Positions 9,244 to 19,772 of a DNA stretch of 64,000 nt are shown here, one piece after another. Below the pieces are notes generated by a model. That model saw nothing but the letters and a program-made list of their open reading frames with translations, searched no databases and had not been told where the DNA came from. Every line of letters begins with the position of its first letter. The stretch's first letter is position 1. The stretch is from the NCBI GenBank assembly GCA_019186965.1, contig JABARV010000018.1, positions 62,001-126,000 of the forward strand, written 5' to 3'. Source of the stretch: Turneriella sp. Its GTDB lineage: Bacteria > Spirochaetota > Leptospiria > Turneriellales > Turneriellaceae. The position numbers and the translations under genes are program-made.

Positions 9244-10317
9244 CTAATAATCGCTAATTTTGTCCACCCACTCAGGATGATCGATGAACGGATTACGGTT
9301 TCCTTGAATGCGTTCAATCCAATCGTTGCGGTCGCGTTCGCCTTGCGAGACGGGATCTGCCGTGTGCCAAGTGCGCAGTAAATTTTCAAGCCAAGTATTG
9401 ATATTGGCACGGGTCACCGCTTCGTTGGAGTTCCAACAGCCATCTTCGGTATAATACCGCGTTGCTATATAGAAATAATTACGCGCAATGTCACCCTTAA
9501 GGTTTGCTGGTGGCTCAAAAACTTTTGCCGTAGTAGATCCCGCAATGAAGCCAGGCATTGCACCCGTATCCGGTGTGCCAAACTTGGCACCATTATTCGA
9601 CGGGAAGCCAGCATCATTTGCAAGAACAACACCGTATGAATAATTACTCCGTGACGTGTTCACAGAATCTCGGCTGGGAATTAAATGGTGCAAATCGGTA
9701 AACGCCCGAAAATCCCAATTTTTTGCGCTATCCCACGAAGAACCTTCAGAATTACCATTGTAACAATACTTGCCCTGTGCCGGGTCGTTCACTGGTGTCG
9801 CACCTGCCGCAAACCAACTCTTGGGCCACGAATGCTCGCGGTTATACGTATTTTGATCGCCACCGGATGACACCGACATAATTTGTGAGGGCGTTGTATA
9901 ACACTGGCCATCGTAGTAATCATAAAGCTTTCCCGCAGCACAGCCGGTGACGGGATTAGCTGCTTTTTCGGCAAAGACGACATACGCATCCCATACATCG
10001 AATCTTTTTTCGACGGGATACCCTGCGTTAGAAAGCGTCATAAATTCTTTCGTATAGTAAGCCGAAAAAGGTTCGGCACTTTCTGTGTACCGCAACACCC
10101 GCTGGCCGCGGATACGTTTTTGTAGTTCGCTCTTGAACGCATTGTTCGTGAGGCATGTATCGATGCCTTGGTAGTACGCTTCGTTGACAGAACACGAAGA
10201 AGAGAGCGCAGCGTTTAAATTTTCTGTTCCCTGATAGCCATCGGTGATATTAACACAGTACATAAAAACGAAGGTGCTCACTAAAAAAGAAAGAAGATGT
10301 TTTAACGGCCGCATCAT
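9244..10317 (-). CDS. Secreted endonuclease I family lipoprotein
   Basis: A 357-residue member of the endonuclease I (EndA/Bsn, Pfam Endonuclease_1) beta-beta-alpha-metal nucleases. Active-site motifs are visible: NREHSWPKSWF with the catalytic His near residue 160, and DLHHLIPSRDSVNTSRSN near residue 205 with the conserved Asn. The N-terminus MMRPLKHLL followed by a hydrophobic stretch ending FVFMYC is a plausible spirochaete lipoprotein signal, so it probably acts outside the inner membrane, degrading DNA. A GTG at 10347 overlaps the upstream stop as GTGA and would add 10 residues; I prefer the ATG at 10317, which has a purine-rich AGGTG before it. Last gene of the operon. Confidence 0.87.
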   Translation of the reverse strand: MMRPLKHLLSFLVSTFVFMYCVNITDGYQGTENLNAALSSSCSVNEAYYQGIDTCLTNNAFKSELQKRIRGQRVLRYTESAEPFSAYYTKEFMTLSNAGYPVEKRFDVWDAYVVFAEKAANPVTGCAAGKLYDYYDGQCYTTPSQIMSVSSGGDQNTYNREHSWPKSWFAAGATPVNDPAQGKYCYNGNSEGSSWDSAKNWDFRAFTDLHHLIPSRDSVNTSRSNYSYGVVLANDAGFPSNNGAKFGTPDTGAMPGFIAGSTTAKVFEPPANLKGDIARNYFYIATRYYTEDGCWNSNEAVTRANINTWLENLLRTWHTADPVSQGERDRNDWIERIQGNRNPFIDHPEWVDKISDY

Positions 10318-10343
10318 ACACCTACCATTGTTTTTTCGGTCTC

Positions 10344-11357
10344 TCACTTCAACGTCTCCACCTGAGAACGCAGTCCCAACATCAAACTGAGGTTAGTATC
10401 TGCGCTGTTGTACTCGGGCGCAAACACCGGCCCTGTCATGCGCACCTTTGCGCCCTCGGCGATATTGTAGCTATACATATCGCCCACATCAAAGCCCGAG
10501 AGCGTGCCCGCACCCAAATACAAACTCATCTGAAAATTAAATTTGGTACCACCGGTGCAGTTGTTCATTGCATCGGTCTTGTTTGCCGCGCCAACGCATA
10601 GAATACCCATATAACCCTGTTGGTAATTAAACTGGAACGAGCGTCCCGACGAACATTCTACATACGCGGGCGACTGGAGCACGTATCCTTCTAATTGTCG
10701 TGTTTGGTATAAATCCACCCCCCTTGCAAATGCGGCGCTTTGGACGGCATAAGGTATGCCGTTCCCCGATGACACCACTTCACGGCTAGTCACGTCAAAA
10801 TCGGTGACAATCGGTATCACGTTCGCGCCACTGCCGTATTTTTGTGCTTTAGACACCGTGATTTTAAGGCGACTACCCAAAGGCGCCATGCCGTCGTTCT
10901 TCGCGTTCAAAATATATTTTGCGCTCGCTGTGTCGGCCGTGTTTTGGCTGGGAGGATTAAGTCCGTACACGACAAGGATTGCAGCGTCTTTATCTTGCAA
11001 AATAAAAGAGCGTGAATAAATAACATCGCTGGTCGCACACCCCGTCGCCGTTGCCCCTACTGCGACCGCATAATTCGAAGGCATCGTGACAATACCTTCG
11101 ATGGTGGCCGATGTTGCGGTTTCAGCGTTTGAACCAAATGCGTTGATTGTCGTCACCAATGCCTGAATGCCACCGGAAAAAGTTGGAGCATCGGTGGTAT
11201 AATTTATTTTCTCCGCTGTCTTGGCGTCGTTAAAAAAATCTTGATTGCGCTCGTCAAATTGGCTGCCCGATGTACACGACAGAAGAAAAAACAATGCATA
11301 CCGGAGGGACGCGCTATAGCGCGTCCCTACACGATTACGGAAAAATTTTAATATCAT
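10344..11357 (-). CDS. Lipoprotein with OB-fold-like (YhcR/DUF5689-type) domain
   Basis: A 337-residue lipoprotein: after a basic N-terminus comes LRYALFFLLSC, a lipobox with Cys at residue 28. The mature part is beta-rich. ATIEGIVTMPSNY, then SRSFILQDKDAAILVVYG, then LGSRLKITVSKAQKYG has the look of the OB-fold domain that accompanies secreted nucleases such as YhcR and ExeM; this is pattern-based. Start and stop overlap neighbours by 4 bp (ATGA with the upstream gene, GTGA with the GTG of endonuclease I). Codons 10-17 of the signal peptide are made of a 24-bp perfect palindrome, which is odd. Confidence 0.62.
   Translation of the reverse strand: MILKFFRNRVGTRYSASLRYALFFLLSCTSGSQFDERNQDFFNDAKTAEKINYTTDAPTFSGGIQALVTTINAFGSNAETATSATIEGIVTMPSNYAVAVGATATGCATSDVIYSRSFILQDKDAAILVVYGLNPPSQNTADTASAKYILNAKNDGMAPLGSRLKITVSKAQKYGSGANVIPIVTDFDVTSREVVSSGNGIPYAVQSAAFARGVDLYQTRQLEGYVLQSPAYVECSSGRSFQFNYQQGYMGILCVGAANKTDAMNNCTGGTKFNFQMSLYLGAGTLSGFDVGDMYSYNIAEGAKVRMTGPVFAPEYNSADTNLSLMLGLRSQVETLK
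11305..11328. repeat. 24-bp perfect palindrome inside a signal-peptide coding region
   Basis: AGGGACGCGCTA is followed directly by its reverse complement TAGCGCGTCCCT. It is GC-rich compared with its surroundings and is read in frame as about eight residues (GTRYSASLR region) of the n-region of the lipoprotein at 10344-11357. I see no second copy in the window. Short GTAGGGACGCG-type palindromes recur as dispersed repeats in some other bacteria (recalled, not searched). Confidence 0.8.
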
Positions 11358-11776
11358 TTTGCATCCCCCACGCTTGCCGCCAAAGACCGTGCTTCTTTAA
11401 TGTAATCACGTACCGCTTCACTTGCGCGGTTCAAATTATCGTAATCAATAATTTCTTCGTAGTACGCATCTTGGTGTAAAATGCCTTTAGCGATGGTATA
11501 TAAATCCTTCAAATTGCGGTTGCCGTATTTTGAATGAAAAAACACCCGCCCCCGCTCTGAACGGGGAAAATCGTTTCTCGCAATGCCCTTTGCCGCCAAA
11601 AGGCCACGGAACGCTTCACCCACCGCAAGCCAGCCCTTACCCGCTGCTTGCCGTGCTTTGATTTTATCATCGAGCCGTGTAGCAATACCAAGTTCTGTAT
11701 CTGCAATCGACGCCAAAGCCTGTGCCTTGCCAAAATAGCTGCCATAGGTAAGAGTTTGTTCTTCACCTTTCGTCAT
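11354..11776 (-). CDS. Small helical cytosolic protein, HEPN/PaREP1/DUF5618-like
   Basis: A 140-residue protein without a signal peptide, although every neighbour in the operon appears exported. It is predicted all-helical: YFGKAQALASIADTE, KIKARQAAGKGWLAVGEAFRGLLAAKG, then DLYTIAKGILHQDAYYEE and a last helix with VRDYIKEARSL. The spacing (Lys/Ala-Gly helix, PRSERGR turn, LHqDaYY) reminds me of DUF5618/PaREP1 proteins, which belong to the HEPN-like helical group, but the RxxxxH nuclease motif is absent. The ATG at 11776 is 16 bp after the PLD gene stop; longer in-frame starts would lie inside that gene. It overlaps the next gene by ATGA. Confidence 0.6.
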   Translation of the reverse strand: MTKGEEQTLTYGSYFGKAQALASIADTELGIATRLDDKIKARQAAGKGWLAVGEAFRGLLAAKGIARNDFPRSERGRVFFHSKYGNRNLKDLYTIAKGILHQDAYYEEIIDYDNLNRASEAVRDYIKEARSLAASVGDAK

Positions 11777-11792
11777 AGTTCCCCTGCATCTC

Positions 11793-14231
11793 CTACGGCA
11801 ACGCGCTCCACCTTGAGTTGATTTCACCCGGTGTGGCGACGGTATAATCTTTGTAATCGGCTTTGATGTATGTGCCGGTGCCGCCGTTGCCACCACTACC
11901 GCCGCCTGCAATATCTTTGGTGGCGTGATCCCAGCTATTGGGGTCGGCACCATTGCCCCACACTCCCAGTGTTGGCATGTTGCGCTCCATCGACGCCATG
12001 TAGAGACGGTCGCCTGCTTGAATGTCGCAAATTTTATCGGATGCCGCAGTGCCGGTGCCTAAAGGGAGTCCATTATCGGGAAAGCTAATACTCCCCGATG
12101 CCACAAGGCGATTGCCATCGGTTGTATTGCCAGCCGAGGCGGAGGTAAAATATCCCCCTTTCAAATATCCTACGTCGGCATTGGTTGTCGGCGCACTCGA
12201 TGCACCGCCTGTGTATGCGACACCATTGTCAGTACGCGCATGGCCTGCGACATCTACTAAGTTACCTCGGTTGTCGCGCAGCTCAATCCAAAGCGAAGTG
12301 AAATGCGGATAGTCTGTCGTGCTTCCTGCGTGCATCACATACGGATTAAAATATCCCGAACCGGTAAAGCGGTCGATGTCGCTGTTGTACGCCGGTCGGC
12401 ATCTTCCACTTGTGGCATCAAACGGAGGAAAATCAAACGTGAGAGGGCCACCTCCCCCCACTGTTGTACGCCCCGTGCTGCTGGTACGTCTATCAAAAAG
12501 GGTGAAAAAATTCGAGAGGCCGTTGGCGGGGTTATAGTATGTAATCTTGTTGCTAAAAGACGCCGCATTGGCCGGATCGTAAAGTACGCTTGCGGGAAAG
12601 CTATACCCGTCGGCGGTTAAATCTTTCGGTTGGTCGGGTTTGGTAACCACGACAAAACCTTTTGCGGGAATCACCGTGCCCCCCGGAAAACCCACAAGGC
12701 CACGTTTGGCGAGTGCTTCGTAACCGGGCCAGCCACTCGAATACACACCCGGGTCGGTGTAGTTGTCAATGACCGGAAAGTAAAGGCTCCAGAACGAAAT
12801 ATCGATCGCGCGGTCGTTAGGGTTGTAAAGCTCTATAAATTGGTTACTATCGTATGCGTAGTATTTGCCGCCAATATTGCGCGTCGTGCCAGCGTAGTTC
12901 ACCTCGGAAATTACAATCTTTTGGTAGTCGCCCACTTCGCGCTGTTGGTAGTTCGTCACCCCCTGCGCCATCTCGGCGTTGGTGGGATAACGCTGGTCCA
13001 TCGGCACGCCATCGTCGTAAATCTGTTGCCAAAACTTTAAGTAACGATCGACAATCGCCGGTGAATGGATGATGATGAGGTTTTCATCGTTGTTGTTGTT
13101 GGCATTCGGCGACCAGTTAAAAGAGCCGAGCATCAGCTTTGCGTTAGGAGTGCCTGCGTCGACGGCGATTGTTTTTGCGTGGAGGCGTCCCCCACCCGCC
13201 TGCCAATCGCCTAAATTATTATTGTTTTCATTCCCGTCGATGCGTAAATCAAACGGCGCATAACAACGCGTGTTCGCCTGCGTGGGAGTATCCCACGTTG
13301 CGGTAAAAGGGTTTGTCGTACCACCGTTGGTTACTCCCACACCCGCTTCAAAACCGTACGTGTGGCCACACGATGTGCCGACGCGGTACACCTCGACGTA
13401 TTGGTTGTGCGTGAGCTGCGATCTATCCATCACGCCGTGTACCGCGTTCTTGTCGCCCGCTGCGGTGAACTCTTTGTGCTTTTGGATAAACATGCGCCCC
13501 AGTTGGTCGTGCGTAAAAGCAAAAATACCAAAGTGGATATTTTTTTGCGCTTGGGCAACCCCTTGCAAAAATTGGCTCATCGCGTCTTCGTGCGGTGAAA
13601 AATACACTTCAATTTTAACACCGCCCACATCGAACACGTTGTTGTTGTCGGGACGGTCCTTCGCGTGGCCAAAGCGACCTGCCATCATTTGCTGGTGCTC
13701 GTTGATAAAATCTTCTGCAAGTTCTTTCGATTCAATAATCGTCCACACGTTGTAGTTGCGGTCGATTTCAGAGTCGGTGATATTGCCCGTGCCGGTCATC
13801 ACATAGCGGCGGTCGATAACGCAAAACTTGTTGTGTTGGATAGATTGGGAATTACCCGCCACCAGTTTTGCATTGGGATAGCGGCGCAATAAATCCTCAA
13901 ACTGTACATAGCCAATTTCACCATACGAGTACGTCCCCGCGTCGCCCGCTAATTGCACGTCGAGTCCACGACGCACTGCACGCAACACCGAGTCTTTAAT
14001 CGACGCACGATAAAAACCGTACATCGCCCAATACACTTCTTTTTTGGCATTATCGATGAGGTTCGCCAAGCGGATGTCAAACTCGGGGGGGCGGTGGCTG
14101 TTGGGTGCTTTTCCCGGGTAGTTGGTGTACATTTCCAGCAAGCGGTTATTGGGATCGTCTTGGCTCACCTTCACCCGCGAACAAAAAACGAGGGGGATTG
14201 TTAGCGCTGCGTAAAAAATAAACCGTATCAT
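11793..14231 (-). CDS. Phospholipase D-fold lipoprotein with C-terminal lamin-tail domain
   Basis: An 812-residue lipoprotein (signal ending LTIPLVFC). Two complete HKD motifs are present: HNKFCVID with TGTGNITDSE (His near residue 132) and HAKTIAVD with MLGSFNWSPNANNNNDEN (His near residue 348). The PLD-fold catalytic pair is therefore intact; the family includes nucleases (Nuc, Zucchini) as well as phospholipases. A lamin-tail-like beta-sandwich begins near residue 435 (KIVISEVNYAG...NQFIELYNPNDRAIDISFWSLYF). The remaining C-terminus is Gly/Asn-rich with a further LTD-like stretch (SLWIELRDNRGNLVDVAGH). Its start overlaps the upstream stop as ATGA. Substrate is not known; nuclease is favoured by context. 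Confidence 0.85.
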   Translation of the reverse strand: MIRFIFYAALTIPLVFCSRVKVSQDDPNNRLLEMYTNYPGKAPNSHRPPEFDIRLANLIDNAKKEVYWAMYGFYRASIKDSVLRAVRRGLDVQLAGDAGTYSYGEIGYVQFEDLLRRYPNAKLVAGNSQSIQHNKFCVIDRRYVMTGTGNITDSEIDRNYNVWTIIESKELAEDFINEHQQMMAGRFGHAKDRPDNNNVFDVGGVKIEVYFSPHEDAMSQFLQGVAQAQKNIHFGIFAFTHDQLGRMFIQKHKEFTAAGDKNAVHGVMDRSQLTHNQYVEVYRVGTSCGHTYGFEAGVGVTNGGTTNPFTATWDTPTQANTRCYAPFDLRIDGNENNNNLGDWQAGGGRLHAKTIAVDAGTPNAKLMLGSFNWSPNANNNNDENLIIIHSPAIVDRYLKFWQQIYDDGVPMDQRYPTNAEMAQGVTNYQQREVGDYQKIVISEVNYAGTTRNIGGKYYAYDSNQFIELYNPNDRAIDISFWSLYFPVIDNYTDPGVYSSGWPGYEALAKRGLVGFPGGTVIPAKGFVVVTKPDQPKDLTADGYSFPASVLYDPANAASFSNKITYYNPANGLSNFFTLFDRRTSSTGRTTVGGGGPLTFDFPPFDATSGRCRPAYNSDIDRFTGSGYFNPYVMHAGSTTDYPHFTSLWIELRDNRGNLVDVAGHARTDNGVAYTGGASSAPTTNADVGYLKGGYFTSASAGNTTDGNRLVASGSISFPDNGLPLGTGTAASDKICDIQAGDRLYMASMERNMPTLGVWGNGADPNSWDHATKDIAGGGSGGNGGTGTYIKADYKDYTVATPGEINSRWSALP

Positions 14232-15793
14232 AATGCTCCCCCCACCTGAATGAGTTTATCGATGAGCGCCTTAAAGTCGTCAAAGATTTTTGTGTTCGTC
14301 TGTGATCCCGCTGGTTCGATGACCATCACCACTGCGTCGGTAATTAGAAAGAAATCGTCGCGCGTACGCTTAGGCTCCACGTCTTGTGAACCGCCTTTGT
14401 CGTAATAATATCTTTTGCGCAAATCGGAAGACATCACAATCAGGCGTGGGCGGCGTGCGCCGTAATCGGTCAAAAAGACATTGTAAGGAATAGGCGATGC
14501 AAGTTTTTTCACCGACACCACCGACGCATCGCCAACGGTGGTCATAAGACTCGCCATGTCGCAGTGGATTGACGTTACATTCATAAGTGCCGTCGCGCTT
14601 GCGCAGCCAGGGCCTGTCAAATTAGAAGTGCCCCCTGCATGGCAATAAGTTGACCCGGGGCTTGAAATTGAACTACCGTCATAAAAAGGTAATTTGAGTC
14701 CCGCCGCCGCTGCGGTGTTAGTAGTGGGGCAATTATCCGACACCAATGCATTGTAAGGTTGCGCCGCCGCCGTCCATGGCGTGGTAAGTGGCGTGGGGGC
14801 AGCGTCCACTTCAGTACCGAAAACACCATCGATGCTAAAATTATTTCCATAGAGTTTTGGGATTGTCGATTTATATTGAAACGCGTTCAGAAGATGGCTA
14901 CGGTTGGCGGTGTGATCGCTGACGTCGAAAATAATATCTTGAGTCATCGCGCGTACCGCAAACTGGATTGATTTTTCCGCACGCAAGAGCTCGGTGACGA
15001 CGGCAGTTTGCGGGTACTCTTGCGGAGCAAAGTAAATGTTAAAAATCAAATCGCCCAACCGAAAACGGGTGTTAGGGTCGGTGATTGTTTTATTAAAACG
15101 GAATTTACCGAAAGACGGCTCTCCCTCGTCGCCGAAAAGACCGCCGTACGCGCCTTGCTGCGCTTCGTTATAAAAATCGTTACAGATGTCGAATGAATGA
15201 AAAACAAAAACTACCGAAAGGCCGGTCGAAAATGTTGCCGCATTTGCCCCGCCCGTCGACACCCAACAGGTGGTTTTATCGGCGACGACAAAATTATATT
15301 CCACACGCCCATCGTACGAACTCGCGGCGTAGCGTAATTTTGTCGGGTGCGTGTTACGGTTGAAATTAAGCCGCGTGCGCAGGATATTTTTTTTCAGATT
15401 CACATTCGGTTCATTCGCCGCAGCGGCGGTGGCGTCAAAGTAGGTTTGAAACATCTGCGGGCGTTTTGCGGCAAGCTGCGCAAAGCCTGCGCTTGCCTCA
15501 TTGCGCCTATCACCGCCGATCGCGACTTTCAAGCCCGCGTTGGCCTTTTGGATCAGCGCGGATGCAATATCGGTGTCCGCTAAGTCATTGAACATCCCCA
15601 CAATTTCCGTTTGCGCAGAATCGATCACATTCAATAGTTTGGCTTTCGCACTGGGATTTCCCCCGATGCCGATATAGTATTCTACAGCCTGAGTTCGCTG
15701 TGCGGCGTCGTTCGTCGTCGAATAGCATCCGCTGCGCATAAATGCGATGGGGATAGTAAGTACAAGTAAAAGGCGTAAAGTGTATGTATTCAT
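14228..15793 (-). CDS. Lipoprotein with degenerate phospholipase D-like fold
   Basis: A 521-residue lipoprotein (lipobox FMRSGC). The N-terminal half aligns by eye with the PLD-fold half of the next gene: LLNVIDSAQTEIVGMFNDL, then LKVAIGGDRRNE, then EYNFVVADKTTCWVSTGGAN where the neighbour has HNKFCVIDRRYVMTGTGN. The catalytic His and Lys are replaced by Glu and Asn, so this half looks inactive. A second repeat starts near residue 245 (FNIYFAPQEYPQTAVVTELLRAEKSIQFAVRAMTQD), again without HxK. The C-terminus has a CHAGGTSNLTGPGC pair of cysteines. It starts by TAATG overlap with the preceding gene and ends by ATGA overlap with the intact PLD gene. Confidence 0.72.
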   Translation of the reverse strand: MNTYTLRLLLVLTIPIAFMRSGCYSTTNDAAQRTQAVEYYIGIGGNPSAKAKLLNVIDSAQTEIVGMFNDLADTDIASALIQKANAGLKVAIGGDRRNEASAGFAQLAAKRPQMFQTYFDATAAAANEPNVNLKKNILRTRLNFNRNTHPTKLRYAASSYDGRVEYNFVVADKTTCWVSTGGANAATFSTGLSVVFVFHSFDICNDFYNEAQQGAYGGLFGDEGEPSFGKFRFNKTITDPNTRFRLGDLIFNIYFAPQEYPQTAVVTELLRAEKSIQFAVRAMTQDIIFDVSDHTANRSHLLNAFQYKSTIPKLYGNNFSIDGVFGTEVDAAPTPLTTPWTAAAQPYNALVSDNCPTTNTAAAAGLKLPFYDGSSISSPGSTYCHAGGTSNLTGPGCASATALMNVTSIHCDMASLMTTVGDASVVSVKKLASPIPYNVFLTDYGARRPRLIVMSSDLRKRYYYDKGGSQDVEPKRTRDDFFLITDAVVMVIEPAGSQTNTKIFDDFKALIDKLIQVGGAL

Positions 15794-16584
15794 TATTTGT
15801 AGTCCGGTGTATTTTTTTCGCCAGGAGTTGCAAACGTGCGTAGGTGGTAATCTGCATGTACATTTTTTCCCGACGCGCCAATAGATGTTGTAGAACAGGC
15901 AGTTCCCATAAGCGGCGTACCTTGTCCTGAAGGAGAAGTTTCATTGCACGGTGTCGATGCGTGCCATGTGGAAACCGAACCGCCCTCCTCTTCAAATGTA
16001 TCTTCGGTGCGCTCCATCGAACGCACGGTGTAACCGTCGAACGCCCCCGAAAGTGGAAAATTGCGGCTAGTTGCATCATCTGATTCTGTGGTGTTGATAC
16101 CACTTTCCATCAAAAAATTTTCGGCGGTACGCGTGGTAATTGACCAGTTGCGTTCGGGAATTGCAAGTCCCGTAAGCACAATCGGTTTGTAATCGGCGCT
16201 GCCTTGGTCGCGGAAAGCACCGCTTGCTTTTGCTATAATTACTTTAAAAGCGCCCGGCGAAACAGTGTTGTTAGGTCCTGCGGGAATGTAATAAATTTTT
16301 TTCACATCTCCTGAAAGCTCAATACGCCAATCGGTCAAATCAATGGGTTTGTTACAATCCGAATTTTGGATTTCAATAAAATCGTCATCGGCGTCGTATG
16401 TACCGTTGTTTTTCATTGAGCCACCCCAGTTGACTTCACGGATTTCTGCACAGCCCCGCTTCCGGTCGACGTTAATCGCGGTTGGCCATGGTTCTCCCAC
16501 CGATGACGTACAATGCATGAGAGCTGGGCTTATTATGAAGCCCGCAACCATGAAAAACCAAGAAATATATTTCCGCTGTCCCAT
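15793..16584 (-). CDS. Lamin-tail domain lipoprotein
   Basis: A 263-residue lipoprotein (signal ending SPALMHC). After the anchor the sequence GCAEIREVNWGGSM...DDDFIEIQNSDCNKPIDLTDWRIE and later PGAFKVIIAK is the immunoglobulin-like lamin-tail (LTD) pattern, covering roughly residues 43-125. In bacteria LTDs occur on secreted and surface proteins next to nuclease or hydrolase domains and probably serve in binding. The rest (TWHASTPCNETSPSGQGTPL, then a final TPGEKN) resembles the tail of the LTD part in the 812-residue neighbour, which also ends with a TPGEIN motif. No catalytic motif. Both ends overlap adjacent genes by one base (TAATG). Confidence 0.78.
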   Translation of the reverse strand: MGQRKYISWFFMVAGFIISPALMHCTSSVGEPWPTAINVDRKRGCAEIREVNWGGSMKNNGTYDADDDFIEIQNSDCNKPIDLTDWRIELSGDVKKIYYIPAGPNNTVSPGAFKVIIAKASGAFRDQGSADYKPIVLTGLAIPERNWSITTRTAENFLMESGINTTESDDATSRNFPLSGAFDGYTVRSMERTEDTFEEEGGSVSTWHASTPCNETSPSGQGTPLMGTACSTTSIGASGKNVHADYHLRTFATPGEKNTPDYK

Positions 16585-18455
16585 TAGAAACTAATTGTAC
16601 TCCTTAAGAAGACTCCCATAAAATCGGCATCCGCCGGGCCGCCTTTGGGTACGCCGTTCTTACTTACAATGTCCTCGATGGGCGTATCAAAGAAAGAGCC
16701 TGGAACAAAAAGCGAAGCGGTAAGTTGGAACATAAGGAGCGAATTCGGGAAGTATTGGATGGTGAGATTAATCTCTTGCCCTAAAGTTTGCCCCAACCGC
16801 TTTTGCGCTTCGAGTTCTGCACGCGAAACGTACGGGTTGTTGATGAGGTCTAAATTCGTGGGTGAAAAATTGACATCGGTTGAACCAGTATCTTGGAGGT
16901 GCCAAATATCGGCACGTACAACAAACTGGCGCCACATTTCAGTTCCAACACCCGCATGCAGGAGCAGCGACCCTGCCTTGCGGTTTGAATCAAACGGCGT
17001 ATCATCGATGCCGCCGTAGTTGACGTAACCTGAAGGGCGCACTCCCCAATAACGGCGCATGAGTGTACCGCCAATCCGGTCCCCTCGCATACCGATAAAT
17101 CCGTGCGAGGTCATATTACCGTTTTTATCGTATTTCGCTCCTTGTGCAAAGAAAAAGTCAAGCTCGGCCAAAGGAGATAAAAACCCTAAAATATTTTTTG
17201 TTTGTACTGAAACCCCTGCACCACCGCCAAAAGACGCGTAGTCTACCTGTGGTTGGCCTTGCCGTTTTAAATCAGAACCGGTGGAAAGAGCACCGTCGAC
17301 GTACACTTGAAGTTGTCTAAAAAACGGGAATTGTTCCTGTGCATTCCACGCAACACGAGCGCCTGTAAGCGCCGACCAATCGTTGTCGGAAAAATTGCCG
17401 ATGCGCCCGTTTTCAGAATAATCAGAACCGCCGTTGTTACCGCGCACGCGTGCGTAATACGCGTACACACGGGGGTCGATACGCATCTTAGTTAATTTTT
17501 TGACAAATGGCTCTCCACTTACTACAAACCCCGTACGGTATGTAGACACATCGCCGTTAAGCCCAGGAAGCTTTCCGCTATCGTTGCGCGAAAAATACTG
17601 GAACTCATCGTTCCACCTATCGTTTTCACCCGCGCCGTAACTATTCGCGCCTGAATAGACATCGAGTCCCAAAATTTTGACATCCAACACATCTTTCCAA
17701 TGGACATTAAACACAATCGCGTCTAAAATATCGCGCAACATATAATCGTTTTGGATACCACCAACGCTATAAAACTGGCGTCCAATAACGGTATCGATGG
17801 AAAGTCCACTTAAATTGAAAAATTCCCAAAAAATATTGGCGCGGGCAATACGCGTACCAGGATTGCCATTACCCTGCAACTGGAAACTTCCCCACACGCC
17901 GTCAAAACCGAATGACATTTCAAGCCCCACGCGCTGCTTGGGGAACATAAACGAAGTGTCGAATTTGGCGCGGGTGAGCGCAAGCCCCTGCGCGTCGTCG
18001 GTAGTGCGGATTTGGTAATCGTTCGTGCTGTTGAGCTGGCGCAAATCGGCATTGTTGTAGCCGTGGAATTCTTGCAGCATATTAAAGCCCCACAAAAATT
18101 CAAACTCAGGTTTGTCTTTTCTAATGGCAAATTGCCGTTCAAACTCGGGCACCCATTCACCGGTACGGTCAAGGCCGCCTGCAGAAAGTGGATTTTCTGT
18201 CGATTGGTCATCCTCCTTTGCGGTAGGCGCATTTTTATTCGTACCCTTTTCGTTTACATTAGGCCCATCTACTTTGAGTTTTGTTTTATCTTTTTTATTA
18301 TCTTTCGTGTTATCTGCATCGTCGTCTAAGCGTGGAATTTTAGGAAACTCCACTTGAGCACTCAGGCTAACCGTAGATATTAAAAAAACTCCGATACATA
18401 AACAAAAGACGATTTGTATTAGGTAATTTTTTTGTGTAGGTTGTATATTTTTCAT
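16584..18455 (-). CDS. Outer-membrane beta-barrel (porin-like) heading the operon
   Basis: A 623-residue protein. The ATG at 18455 is preceded by AAGGAA at good spacing and gives a signal peptide ending STVSLSAQ; the frame is open to 18518 but without a better start. A charged, Lys/Asp/Asn-rich linker of about 60 residues follows, then alternating aromatic strands (FEFLWGFNMLQEF, GFDGVWGSFQLQG, RVYAYYARV, FGGGAGVSVQ) and a C-terminal ...FLRSTISF, matching the terminal Phe of BAM substrates. It resembles alginate-export/porin-type barrels but I cannot name a family. As first gene it could give a route through the outer membrane for products made by the lipoproteins downstream. Confidence 0.75.
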   Translation of the reverse strand: MKNIQPTQKNYLIQIVFCLCIGVFLISTVSLSAQVEFPKIPRLDDDADNTKDNKKDKTKLKVDGPNVNEKGTNKNAPTAKEDDQSTENPLSAGGLDRTGEWVPEFERQFAIRKDKPEFEFLWGFNMLQEFHGYNNADLRQLNSTNDYQIRTTDDAQGLALTRAKFDTSFMFPKQRVGLEMSFGFDGVWGSFQLQGNGNPGTRIARANIFWEFFNLSGLSIDTVIGRQFYSVGGIQNDYMLRDILDAIVFNVHWKDVLDVKILGLDVYSGANSYGAGENDRWNDEFQYFSRNDSGKLPGLNGDVSTYRTGFVVSGEPFVKKLTKMRIDPRVYAYYARVRGNNGGSDYSENGRIGNFSDNDWSALTGARVAWNAQEQFPFFRQLQVYVDGALSTGSDLKRQGQPQVDYASFGGGAGVSVQTKNILGFLSPLAELDFFFAQGAKYDKNGNMTSHGFIGMRGDRIGGTLMRRYWGVRPSGYVNYGGIDDTPFDSNRKAGSLLLHAGVGTEMWRQFVVRADIWHLQDTGSTDVNFSPTNLDLINNPYVSRAELEAQKRLGQTLGQEINLTIQYFPNSLLMFQLTASLFVPGSFFDTPIEDIVSKNGVPKGGPADADFMGVFLRSTISF

Positions 18456-18502: not shown

Positions 18503-18532
18503 ATAGTAGAATGAACACCTACCTTGCGTCAA
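18503..18532 (-). promoter_or_regulatory. Candidate promoter of the surface nuclease/PLD operon
   Basis: On the minus strand TTGACG (18532-18527) is followed after 18 nt by TACTAT (18508-18503); the start site would be near 18496, about 40 nt before the ATG. The -35 sits within a small palindrome, CCTTG-CGT-CAAGG at 18522-18534, which could be an operator. Confidence 0.45.
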
Positions 18533-18611
18533 GGCCAAAAAAAGCCTGCGGATTATCTTGAAACAACCCTTTTGTGGGTTCTCACCCCAGCTCTTGGGTT
18601 CAATTTGCCGC

Positions 18612-19772
18612 ATGGAAAAAAGTACTCCTAACTACTTGCGCGAAAAAGCCGAAGGGTATGTCCAGCAAATGTGTTCCATCTTTGAAAATGGGAAATACCC
18701 ACTTGTCGAAGTAACACGCCCTTGGTCAAAATATAATCCCACCATTTCGGGAGAATTCTCCCGCCCGCGTGCGCTTTACGCGTACCTCAACAGGGAGTTT
18801 GCAGCGCTACTCAATTTGGATGCAGAAATTAAAATATCGCCCTCGCGCACCAAAAGGGATTTGTACGACCCCCAACTTTTTAGCCAACTTTCCGAAGACG
18901 ATTGGGATTTACGCAAAAAGAAACTTTTTCTTTTTACTCCCGAACGCATCGACATTTCGCTAAACCGTCTCGAACACTACACAGGTACGCACGCGGAGGA
19001 TTTTCAAAAATACATCCTCTTTACTAACTACCGTATGCACATTGAGGCATTCCTAAAATTTTATCCCAATTGCGTAAAACCACAACGCGACGGCGTACAA
19101 ATGCCAGCATACCACCACAAAGAAGAAAACCAAAATGGAATTACCCTCGTCAATATTGGTGTAGGCCCTGCGAACGCAAAAACCATCACCGACCACATTG
19201 CAGTGCTGCGCCCCGATTTTATGCTTATGGTTGGCCATTGCGGCGGTTTAAGAAACCACCAAAATATTGGTGACTACGTTTTAGCATCTGCGTATATGCG
19301 CGCCGACGGGGTGATGCACGATGTATTACCTGCGCATGTGCCGGTGATTCCCAACTTTCTTATTAACTTAGCGCTAAGGCATGAACTCGAGAATGAAAAT
19401 ATTCCCTACCGCATGGGTACTGTTTTTACCACAAATAACCGCAACTGGGAATTCAACCAAAAGACGACTGTTGACGCTATGAAAATTTCGCGTTCTATAG
19501 CAGTCGATATGGAATCGGCGACGATTGCCGCCAACGGGTACCGTTACCGCATTCCCCACGCAACGCTTCTTTGCGTAAGCGACAAACCGCTCCATGGACG
19601 CCCTAAACTTTCGGGTGAAGCGCAATCTTTCTACCAAGACAGCAAAGAAAAACACTTGGAGATAGCTATACACACCGTCGAAAAAATACGCAGCCAGTTT
19701 CCCGACGGTTTACCCAGCGACGATGTACGTTCTTTCGACGAACCTCTTTTTGGAAGCGCGGGAAAAGACTAA
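18612..19772 (+). CDS. amn: AMP nucleosidase
   Basis: A 386-residue enzyme of the Amn type, which splits AMP into adenine and ribose 5-phosphate in the cytosol. The N-terminal regulatory part carries RPWSKYNPTISGEFSRPRALYAYL, characteristic of AMP nucleosidases; the C-terminal part is a nucleoside-phosphorylase fold with NIGVGPANAKTITDH, LMVGHCGGLR, VDMESATIAANG and CVSDKPLHG. The E. coli enzyme is about 100 residues longer, so this is the shorter form. I use the ATG at 18612; 18 extra upstream residues would look unstructured. Its TAA shares bases with the TAG of the convergent diguanylate cyclase. Confidence 0.9.
   Translation: MEKSTPNYLREKAEGYVQQMCSIFENGKYPLVEVTRPWSKYNPTISGEFSRPRALYAYLNREFAALLNLDAEIKISPSRTKRDLYDPQLFSQLSEDDWDLRKKKLFLFTPERIDISLNRLEHYTGTHAEDFQKYILFTNYRMHIEAFLKFYPNCVKPQRDGVQMPAYHHKEENQNGITLVNIGVGPANAKTITDHIAVLRPDFMLMVGHCGGLRNHQNIGDYVLASAYMRADGVMHDVLPAHVPVIPNFLINLALRHELENENIPYRMGTVFTTNNRNWEFNQKTTVDAMKISRSIAVDMESATIAANGYRYRIPHATLLCVSDKPLHGRPKLSGEAQSFYQDSKEKHLEIAIHTVEKIRSQFPDGLPSDDVRSFDEPLFGSAGKD

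Follow-up and report, generated by a model that had tools for sequence, protein, structure and literature searches.

A conserved set of outer-membrane barrel, lamin-tail, OB-fold and paired live and dead PLD-fold genes in Leptospiria and a second bacterial phylum

Lamin-tail and OB-type domains combined with nuclease activity are known from the envelope-associated enzymes ExeM of Shewanella, Xds and YhcR; ExeM carries a lamin-tail domain (LTD) and requires its OB region, and the role of the bacterial lamin-tail domain has not been elucidated (PMC6085458). Gene sets for the degradation of extracellular DNA are also already known: the DNA-degradation loci of Candidatus Izemoplasmatales group genes for extracellular nucleases together with one for a lamin-tail protein and are thought to serve feeding on extracellular DNA (PMC8289736). 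Sus-like loci, in turn, bring surface lipoproteins, a hydrolase and an outer-membrane channel together in one operon. Here we describe an operon of Turneriella sp. (Spirochaetota; Leptospiria) located in a window of 64,000 nucleotides, the whole stretch that was analyzed (assembly GCA_019186965.1, contig JABARV010000018.1, positions 62,001 to 126,000). It encodes an outer-membrane barrel (OMP), an LTD lipoprotein, an OB-fold lipoprotein and two lipoproteins of the phospholipase D (PLD) fold, one of which, called live here, has kept its catalytic residues while the other, called dead, has lost them. These five genes recur in a second phylum, and the set looks like an undescribed cell-surface machine that cuts, and perhaps imports, DNA or another phosphate polymer.

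As the preliminary description of this DNA had claimed, the window carries an operon of seven minus-strand genes. All seven are chained, by 1- or 4-bp overlaps and one 16-bp gap. These genes and the region upstream of them are listed below by their positions in the window.

16584..18455, minus strand: OMP, outer-membrane barrel, 623 aa, ATG at 18455, no Pfam family
15793..16584, minus strand: LTD lipoprotein, 263 aa, Pfam LTD E 2.3e-6
14228..15793, minus strand: dead PLD-fold lipoprotein, 521 aa, homologous to the live PLD, HKD motifs lost
11793..14231, minus strand: live PLD lipoprotein with a C-terminal LTD, 812 aa, Pfam PLDc_2 1.3e-29 and LTD 4e-8
11354..11776, minus strand: PaREP1-like small protein without signal peptide, Pfam PaREP1 3.6e-5, just below the cut-off
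10344..11357, minus strand: OB-fold lipoprotein, 337 aa, two OB-like domains in a predicted model, no Pfam family
9244..10347, minus strand: endonuclease I (EndoI) lipoprotein, 367 aa, Pfam PF04231 7.6e-44
18503..18532, minus strand: promoter-like hexamers upstream of OMP, TTGACG-18-TACTAT, not above chance
18558..19772, plus strand: amn (AMP nucleosidase), divergent neighbor, NF006142 384 bits against a cut-off of 307

The second phylum is that of genome G082 (locus L066) and is taken as Myxococcota from its named members; 284 of its genomes were sampled. Loci labeled Lujinxingiaceae, Myxococcales and 'proteobacterium' read OB-OMP-LTD-dead PLD-live PLD, and the five genes keep identical order and strand in all 20 regions fetched from this phylum. 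The barrel occurs in 51 of the 284 genomes and a live PLD of the operon type (E below 1e-90) in 51 as well, both together in 50 and neither in 232. This 50/1/1/232 distribution gives a Fisher p of ~2e-53, a descriptive value that ignores shared ancestry. In 43 of the 50 double carriers a single contig holds the two genes at a distance of 1.8-2.7 kb, and in the other 7 they are on different contigs; OB is found directly upstream of the barrel in 31 of 32 short loci, the exception being a barrel fragment cut at that very place. The conservation of gene order is stronger evidence than the Fisher values, all of which are blind to shared ancestry. The conserved flanking open reading frames are mostly reverse-frame readings of the core genes, with one real addition. 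Some clusters of this phylum have an extra same-strand gene directly upstream of OB (L151:6550-7617, L160:5528-7210, L153:6209-7342), for which no confident Pfam match was obtained and some copies of which weakly match the OB profile.

Within Leptospiria, live-PLD searches over 81 relatives led to the retrieval of 20 regions. The block OMP-LTD-dead PLD-live PLD-OB-EndoI is present in G005, G011, G010, G009 and G012, is divided between two contigs in G004 and is represented in G008 by its first four genes, after which the contig ends. The flanks vary while the block persists: amn is divergent only in three congeners (the window, G005 and G004), and in genera outside the congeners the block is adjoined by unrelated genes. 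When GTDB genomes were scanned with an alignment of the barrel, 30 loci emerged. Other Leptospiria families carry, on one strand, a dead PLD with LTDs, an LTD lipoprotein, the OMP and a live PLD with LTD, in this order; of the 30 genomes of families f5 and f6, 11 have the barrel and the live PLD, each as a strong match, and 19 have neither (Fisher 1.8e-8). Because of this recurrence across family, class and second phylum, the conserved core comprises the barrel, the LTD lipoprotein, the PLD pair and OB: it is OMP, LTD, dead PLD and live PLD, plus OB in two of the three lineages. The proposal that these genes form a single system, which had been made to depend on the co-occurrence of homologues elsewhere, is strongly upheld, as the homologues keep their order across family, class and second phylum.

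The contrast between the two PLD proteins holds throughout. The live PLD has the motifs H133/K135/D140 and H351/K353/D358 and thus shows the two HxK(x4)D motifs plus GxxN by which the PLD superfamily is recognized. It had been described earlier as a PLD-fold lipoprotein; the PLD part stands, but the protein is a PLD+LTD fusion with the LTD at residues 437-542. Its nearest NCBIfam model is NucT (PRK13912) at 59 bits, below the equivalog cut-off of 297, and its relatives in the Protein Data Bank (PDB) by sequence are Nuc (1byr) and NucT (6ehi), with cardiolipin synthase scoring far below both. The dead PLD has a weak PLDc_2 score (Pfam, E 0.044); its homology to the live PLD is clear by tblastn (1e-11) and also in hidden Markov model searches. 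Its first HKD has become E165-x-N167-x4-D172 and the second is lost. The E-x-N-x4-D string is invariant in eight dead PLD orthologues of the Turneriella family, and the first motif of the second-phylum proteins is mostly S/T-H-N-x4-D, so that, in alignments compared by eye, the change of Lys to Asn with retention of Asp is common to both lineages. The His and Lys of HKD are gone from both halves in every dead PLD orthologue examined. At the second-phylum loci both HKD motifs are found in the live PLD in 20 of 20 cases and none in the dead PLD in 20 of 20; Leptospiria show the same contrast, two H-x-K strings in their dead PLDs lying off the motif positions. In a tree of 67 PLD sequences (unrooted, with some long branches), one branch splits live from dead proteins (100/99), and the Turneriella-family proteins are nearest to those of the second phylum on both sides (dead 99/96, live 90/79). 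This split and the pairing of lineages fit one ancient duplication, after which the unit would have been jointly inherited or transferred.

The genome of the window also encodes a stand-alone second PLD+LTD lipoprotein of ~990 aa (G000:C13:15468-16754; L039:6882-9857). It has orthologues in most of the family, and in G011 (L045) the second PLD+LTD gene comes after a gene for a 5'-nucleotidase C-terminal domain. The C-terminal tail region of the live PLD of G005 is present in a second copy at L031:8528-8959. PADLOC reports a distant PLD similarity to DrmC and to one other model; the DrmC score is 43 bits against an equivalog cut-off of 133, no other DISARM component is among the seven genes, and a defense system was rejected.

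The OMP consists of a signal peptide, a charged low-complexity linker of ~75 residues and a predicted 18-strand barrel. Its single-chain structure model, built on a 24-sequence alignment (mean pLDDT 69.7, pTM 0.73), has 18 long strands and a disordered linker at 22-112. When this model was compared with the PDB by Foldseek, the best 16 matches were all AlgE (E 7e-14 to 2e-11, TMt ~0.6); chitoporin, Occ and general porins came next. The protein has no named sequence family in Pfam or NCBIfam, and its profile gave nothing significant against the sequences of solved structures. A second OMP paralogue, ~30% identical (G000:C2:144457-146259 and L059-L064), occurs family-wide without PLD or LTD neighbors.

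Orthologues of the LTD lipoprotein occur in all clusters. The two LTD of the window score 28.4 and 34.0 bits against the curated PF00932 cut-off of 34.3, which homologues elsewhere exceed, the Myxococcota orthologue among them. The model of the OB protein (mean pLDDT 74.6) is matched in Foldseek to POT1, RADX, LEF-3 and bacterial single-stranded DNA-binding proteins (SSBs); TM-scores over the whole chain are low, those of single OB domains higher (TMt ~0.6 for SSBs), and the matches extend to further OB classes such as LysRS. As a predicted structure, the OB protein resembles single-strand DNA binders. Its Myxococcota homologues have weak matches to DUF5689 and to the OB family BOF, and the OB profile found nothing significant among the sequences of solved structures.

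In the window, OMP and LTD have 1 bp in common at 16584, as do LTD and dead PLD at 15793. Overlaps of 4 bp join dead to live PLD (14228-14231), PaREP1 to OB (11354-11357) and OB to EndoI (10344-10347), and the 16-bp gap (11792-11777) separates live PLD from PaREP1; the genes all stand at the positions first given. The single promoter-like element placed ahead of the operon did not hold up, the match at 18532-18503 being no better than chance: a scan against shuffles counted 15 elements of this type where 15.1 are expected, which leaves the gene overlaps as the support for one promoter. Several lipoboxes of the window are atypical (LMHC, LVFC, FMYC), but the anchor Cys behind an N-terminal hydrophobic stretch is kept in the orthologues, whose lipoboxes are better.

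The seven genes taken as one unit also had to be reduced, EndoI being limited to the Turneriella family and the PaREP1 gene to two congeners. EndoI is a true member of its family (150.6 bits against a PF04231 cut-off of 25), with Vvn (1oup) as a relative of known structure. It keeps the REH motif (E171, H172) and N230, and NREH and VN..R are invariant in seven orthologues; we take the E-H and Asn residues to be those of the His-Me-finger catalytic site, as in Vvn. The seventh, unexported gene resembles PaREP1 (E=3.6e-5), sits between live PLD and OB and is found only in the window and in G004, whose copy is 71% identical. An opposite-strand gene of G004 with, by eye, the look of a PIN-type toxin lies between OB and EndoI (L036:3078-3464), and in G005 EndoI is followed on the same strand by the gene for a protein of 1339 aa that contains several Big_5 Ig-like domains (L031:2309-6328).

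The reading that we consider best, and to which we give about an even chance, is the capture and cleavage of nucleic acids at the cell surface with uptake of the products. The OB and lamin-tail lipoproteins would hold a nucleic-acid strand at the surface, where the lipid-anchored heteromeric PLD pair, one member active and one dead, would hydrolyze phosphodiester bonds. In the Turneriella family, lipid-anchored EndoI would make the first cuts, and the 18-strand AlgE-like barrel would pass the fragments into the periplasm, where they would supply phosphorus or nucleotides. Gene set, order and co-occurrence, the loss or retention of catalytic residues and the predicted folds are observations; surface exposure, the formation of a complex, DNA or RNA as the substrate and import rather than export are what we infer. 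A DNA substrate is supported indirectly by the kinship with Nuc and NucT, the likeness of the OB model to single-strand DNA binders, the EndoI of the operon and the LTD known from ExeM; the divergent amn of the genus was likewise counted for nucleic acids. The roles in biofilm DNA removal or in defense against host DNA traps that the preliminary description suggested are speculative.

Several observations weigh against this reading. No cluster beyond the Turneriella family contains EndoI, the sole unambiguous DNase; as a one-family addition it makes the strongest DNA argument of the preliminary description inapplicable to the core. OB is not present in families f5 and f6, PLD chemistry is broad enough to cut lipids too, OB folds also bind sugars, and AlgE, the best structural relative of the barrel, exports alginate. 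No shared Pho-box-like element was seen by eye, without a motif finder, upstream of eight orthologous operons. A UshA-type 5'-nucleotidase is encoded in 8 of 48 genomes of the class and is missing from that of the window, so that periplasmic nucleotide feeding by this route is unsupported. Import through the barrel is the weakest step. In its fullest form, that of an ancient dedicated outer-membrane oligonucleotide importer in Leptospiria and the second phylum, with a new barrel channel, an active/dead PLD hydrolase and OB and LTD strand holders, the proposal is tentative and rather doubtful.

Alternatively, the complex could export or tailor an anionic polymer of the cell itself (capsule, teichoic-like or other phosphodiester), with the barrel as exit, the PLD pair trimming and OB and LTD holding the chain. 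The 16 best AlgE matches, a PLD chemistry suited to any phosphodiester polymer and a core without dedicated DNase outside one family would agree with this; we nevertheless find it unlikely, as 18-strand importers (chitoporin, OccD/OccK) score for the barrel too, the closest matches of the OB model are nucleic-acid binders, one family has EndoI in the operon and no conserved polymer synthase, glycosyltransferase or periplasmic chaperone was seen beside the cluster. NucT is linked to transformation, and the NucT-like relation of the live PLD could suggest DNA uptake for natural transformation through the barrel as outer-membrane entry. We regard this as very improbable: ComEC is found in 44 of 48 genomes of the class irrespective of the cluster, which means no association with competence, a monomeric barrel of 18 strands leaves little room for duplex DNA and several nucleases would destroy the entering DNA. 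There is also only a slim chance that the barrel is a Slam-like translocator flipping the lipoproteins of the cluster to the surface. It lacks the TPR domain of Slam, its structural neighbors are solute or polymer channels and a second barrel paralogue in the same genomes stands by itself, even though it always adjoins lipoprotein genes in the clusters and has a long, unusual N-terminal linker.

Two further explanations concern the substrate and the unit itself. Phospholipases are among the HKD enzymes and some second-phylum hosts are Bradymonadales, reported predators (PMC7460792), so that the PLD pair might act on phospholipids in a surface device for membrane remodeling or prey lysis; the nearest characterized relatives are however the nucleases Nuc and NucT, with cardiolipin synthase far lower, and OB, LTD and EndoI would be ill-suited partners of a lipase, which makes this decidedly improbable. 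That seven neighboring genes share no joint function has a negligible probability: only the varying flanks and accessory genes speak for it, and a chance neighborhood is ruled out by order and co-occurrence in two phyla despite changing flanks.

The passage of nucleic-acid fragments across the Gram-negative outer membrane is, to our knowledge, poorly known. A system whose membership and neighborhood are kept in two phyla is defined and testable, both for fragment import and for the role of the LTD. The analysis also brings to light a PLD pair whose active and inactive members are conserved together, and a family of outer-membrane proteins unnamed in Pfam and NCBIfam. In agreement with the preliminary description, a literature search that left most subscription papers and preprints outside its reach found no description of this gene set, and nothing like it by gene content.

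The Candidatus Izemoplasmatales belong to a wall-less former Tenericutes lineage and have no outer membrane. Additional nucleases are encoded in their loci, as are ABC and phosphate transporters, and the accessible part of the source reports neither a PLD pair nor a barrel (PMC8289736). ExeM, Xds and YhcR are single polypeptides with an EEP nuclease and have no PLD, dead partner or barrel; no ExeM/NucH protein (NF033681) exceeds the cut-off in the class, and the seven genes contain no EEP domain. Sus-like loci differ in that the seven genes have no Pfam match to SusC (Plug/TonB_dep_Rec) or SusD. AlgE and the OprD/Occ porins share the predicted 18-strand barrel as its best Foldseek matches, but there is no detectable sequence relation to OMP and alginate genes were not seen beside the operon. 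Endonuclease I, the family of Vvn, Dns and EndA, includes the operon's EndoI as a true member, which differs from these three in being lipid-anchored, operon-borne and missing from the system outside the family. Lastly, each chain of Nuc and NucT, the solved proteins closest to the live PLD, has a single HKD and acts in a homodimer, whereas the present system has two HKDs per chain, a fusion to an LTD and a separate dead paralogue.

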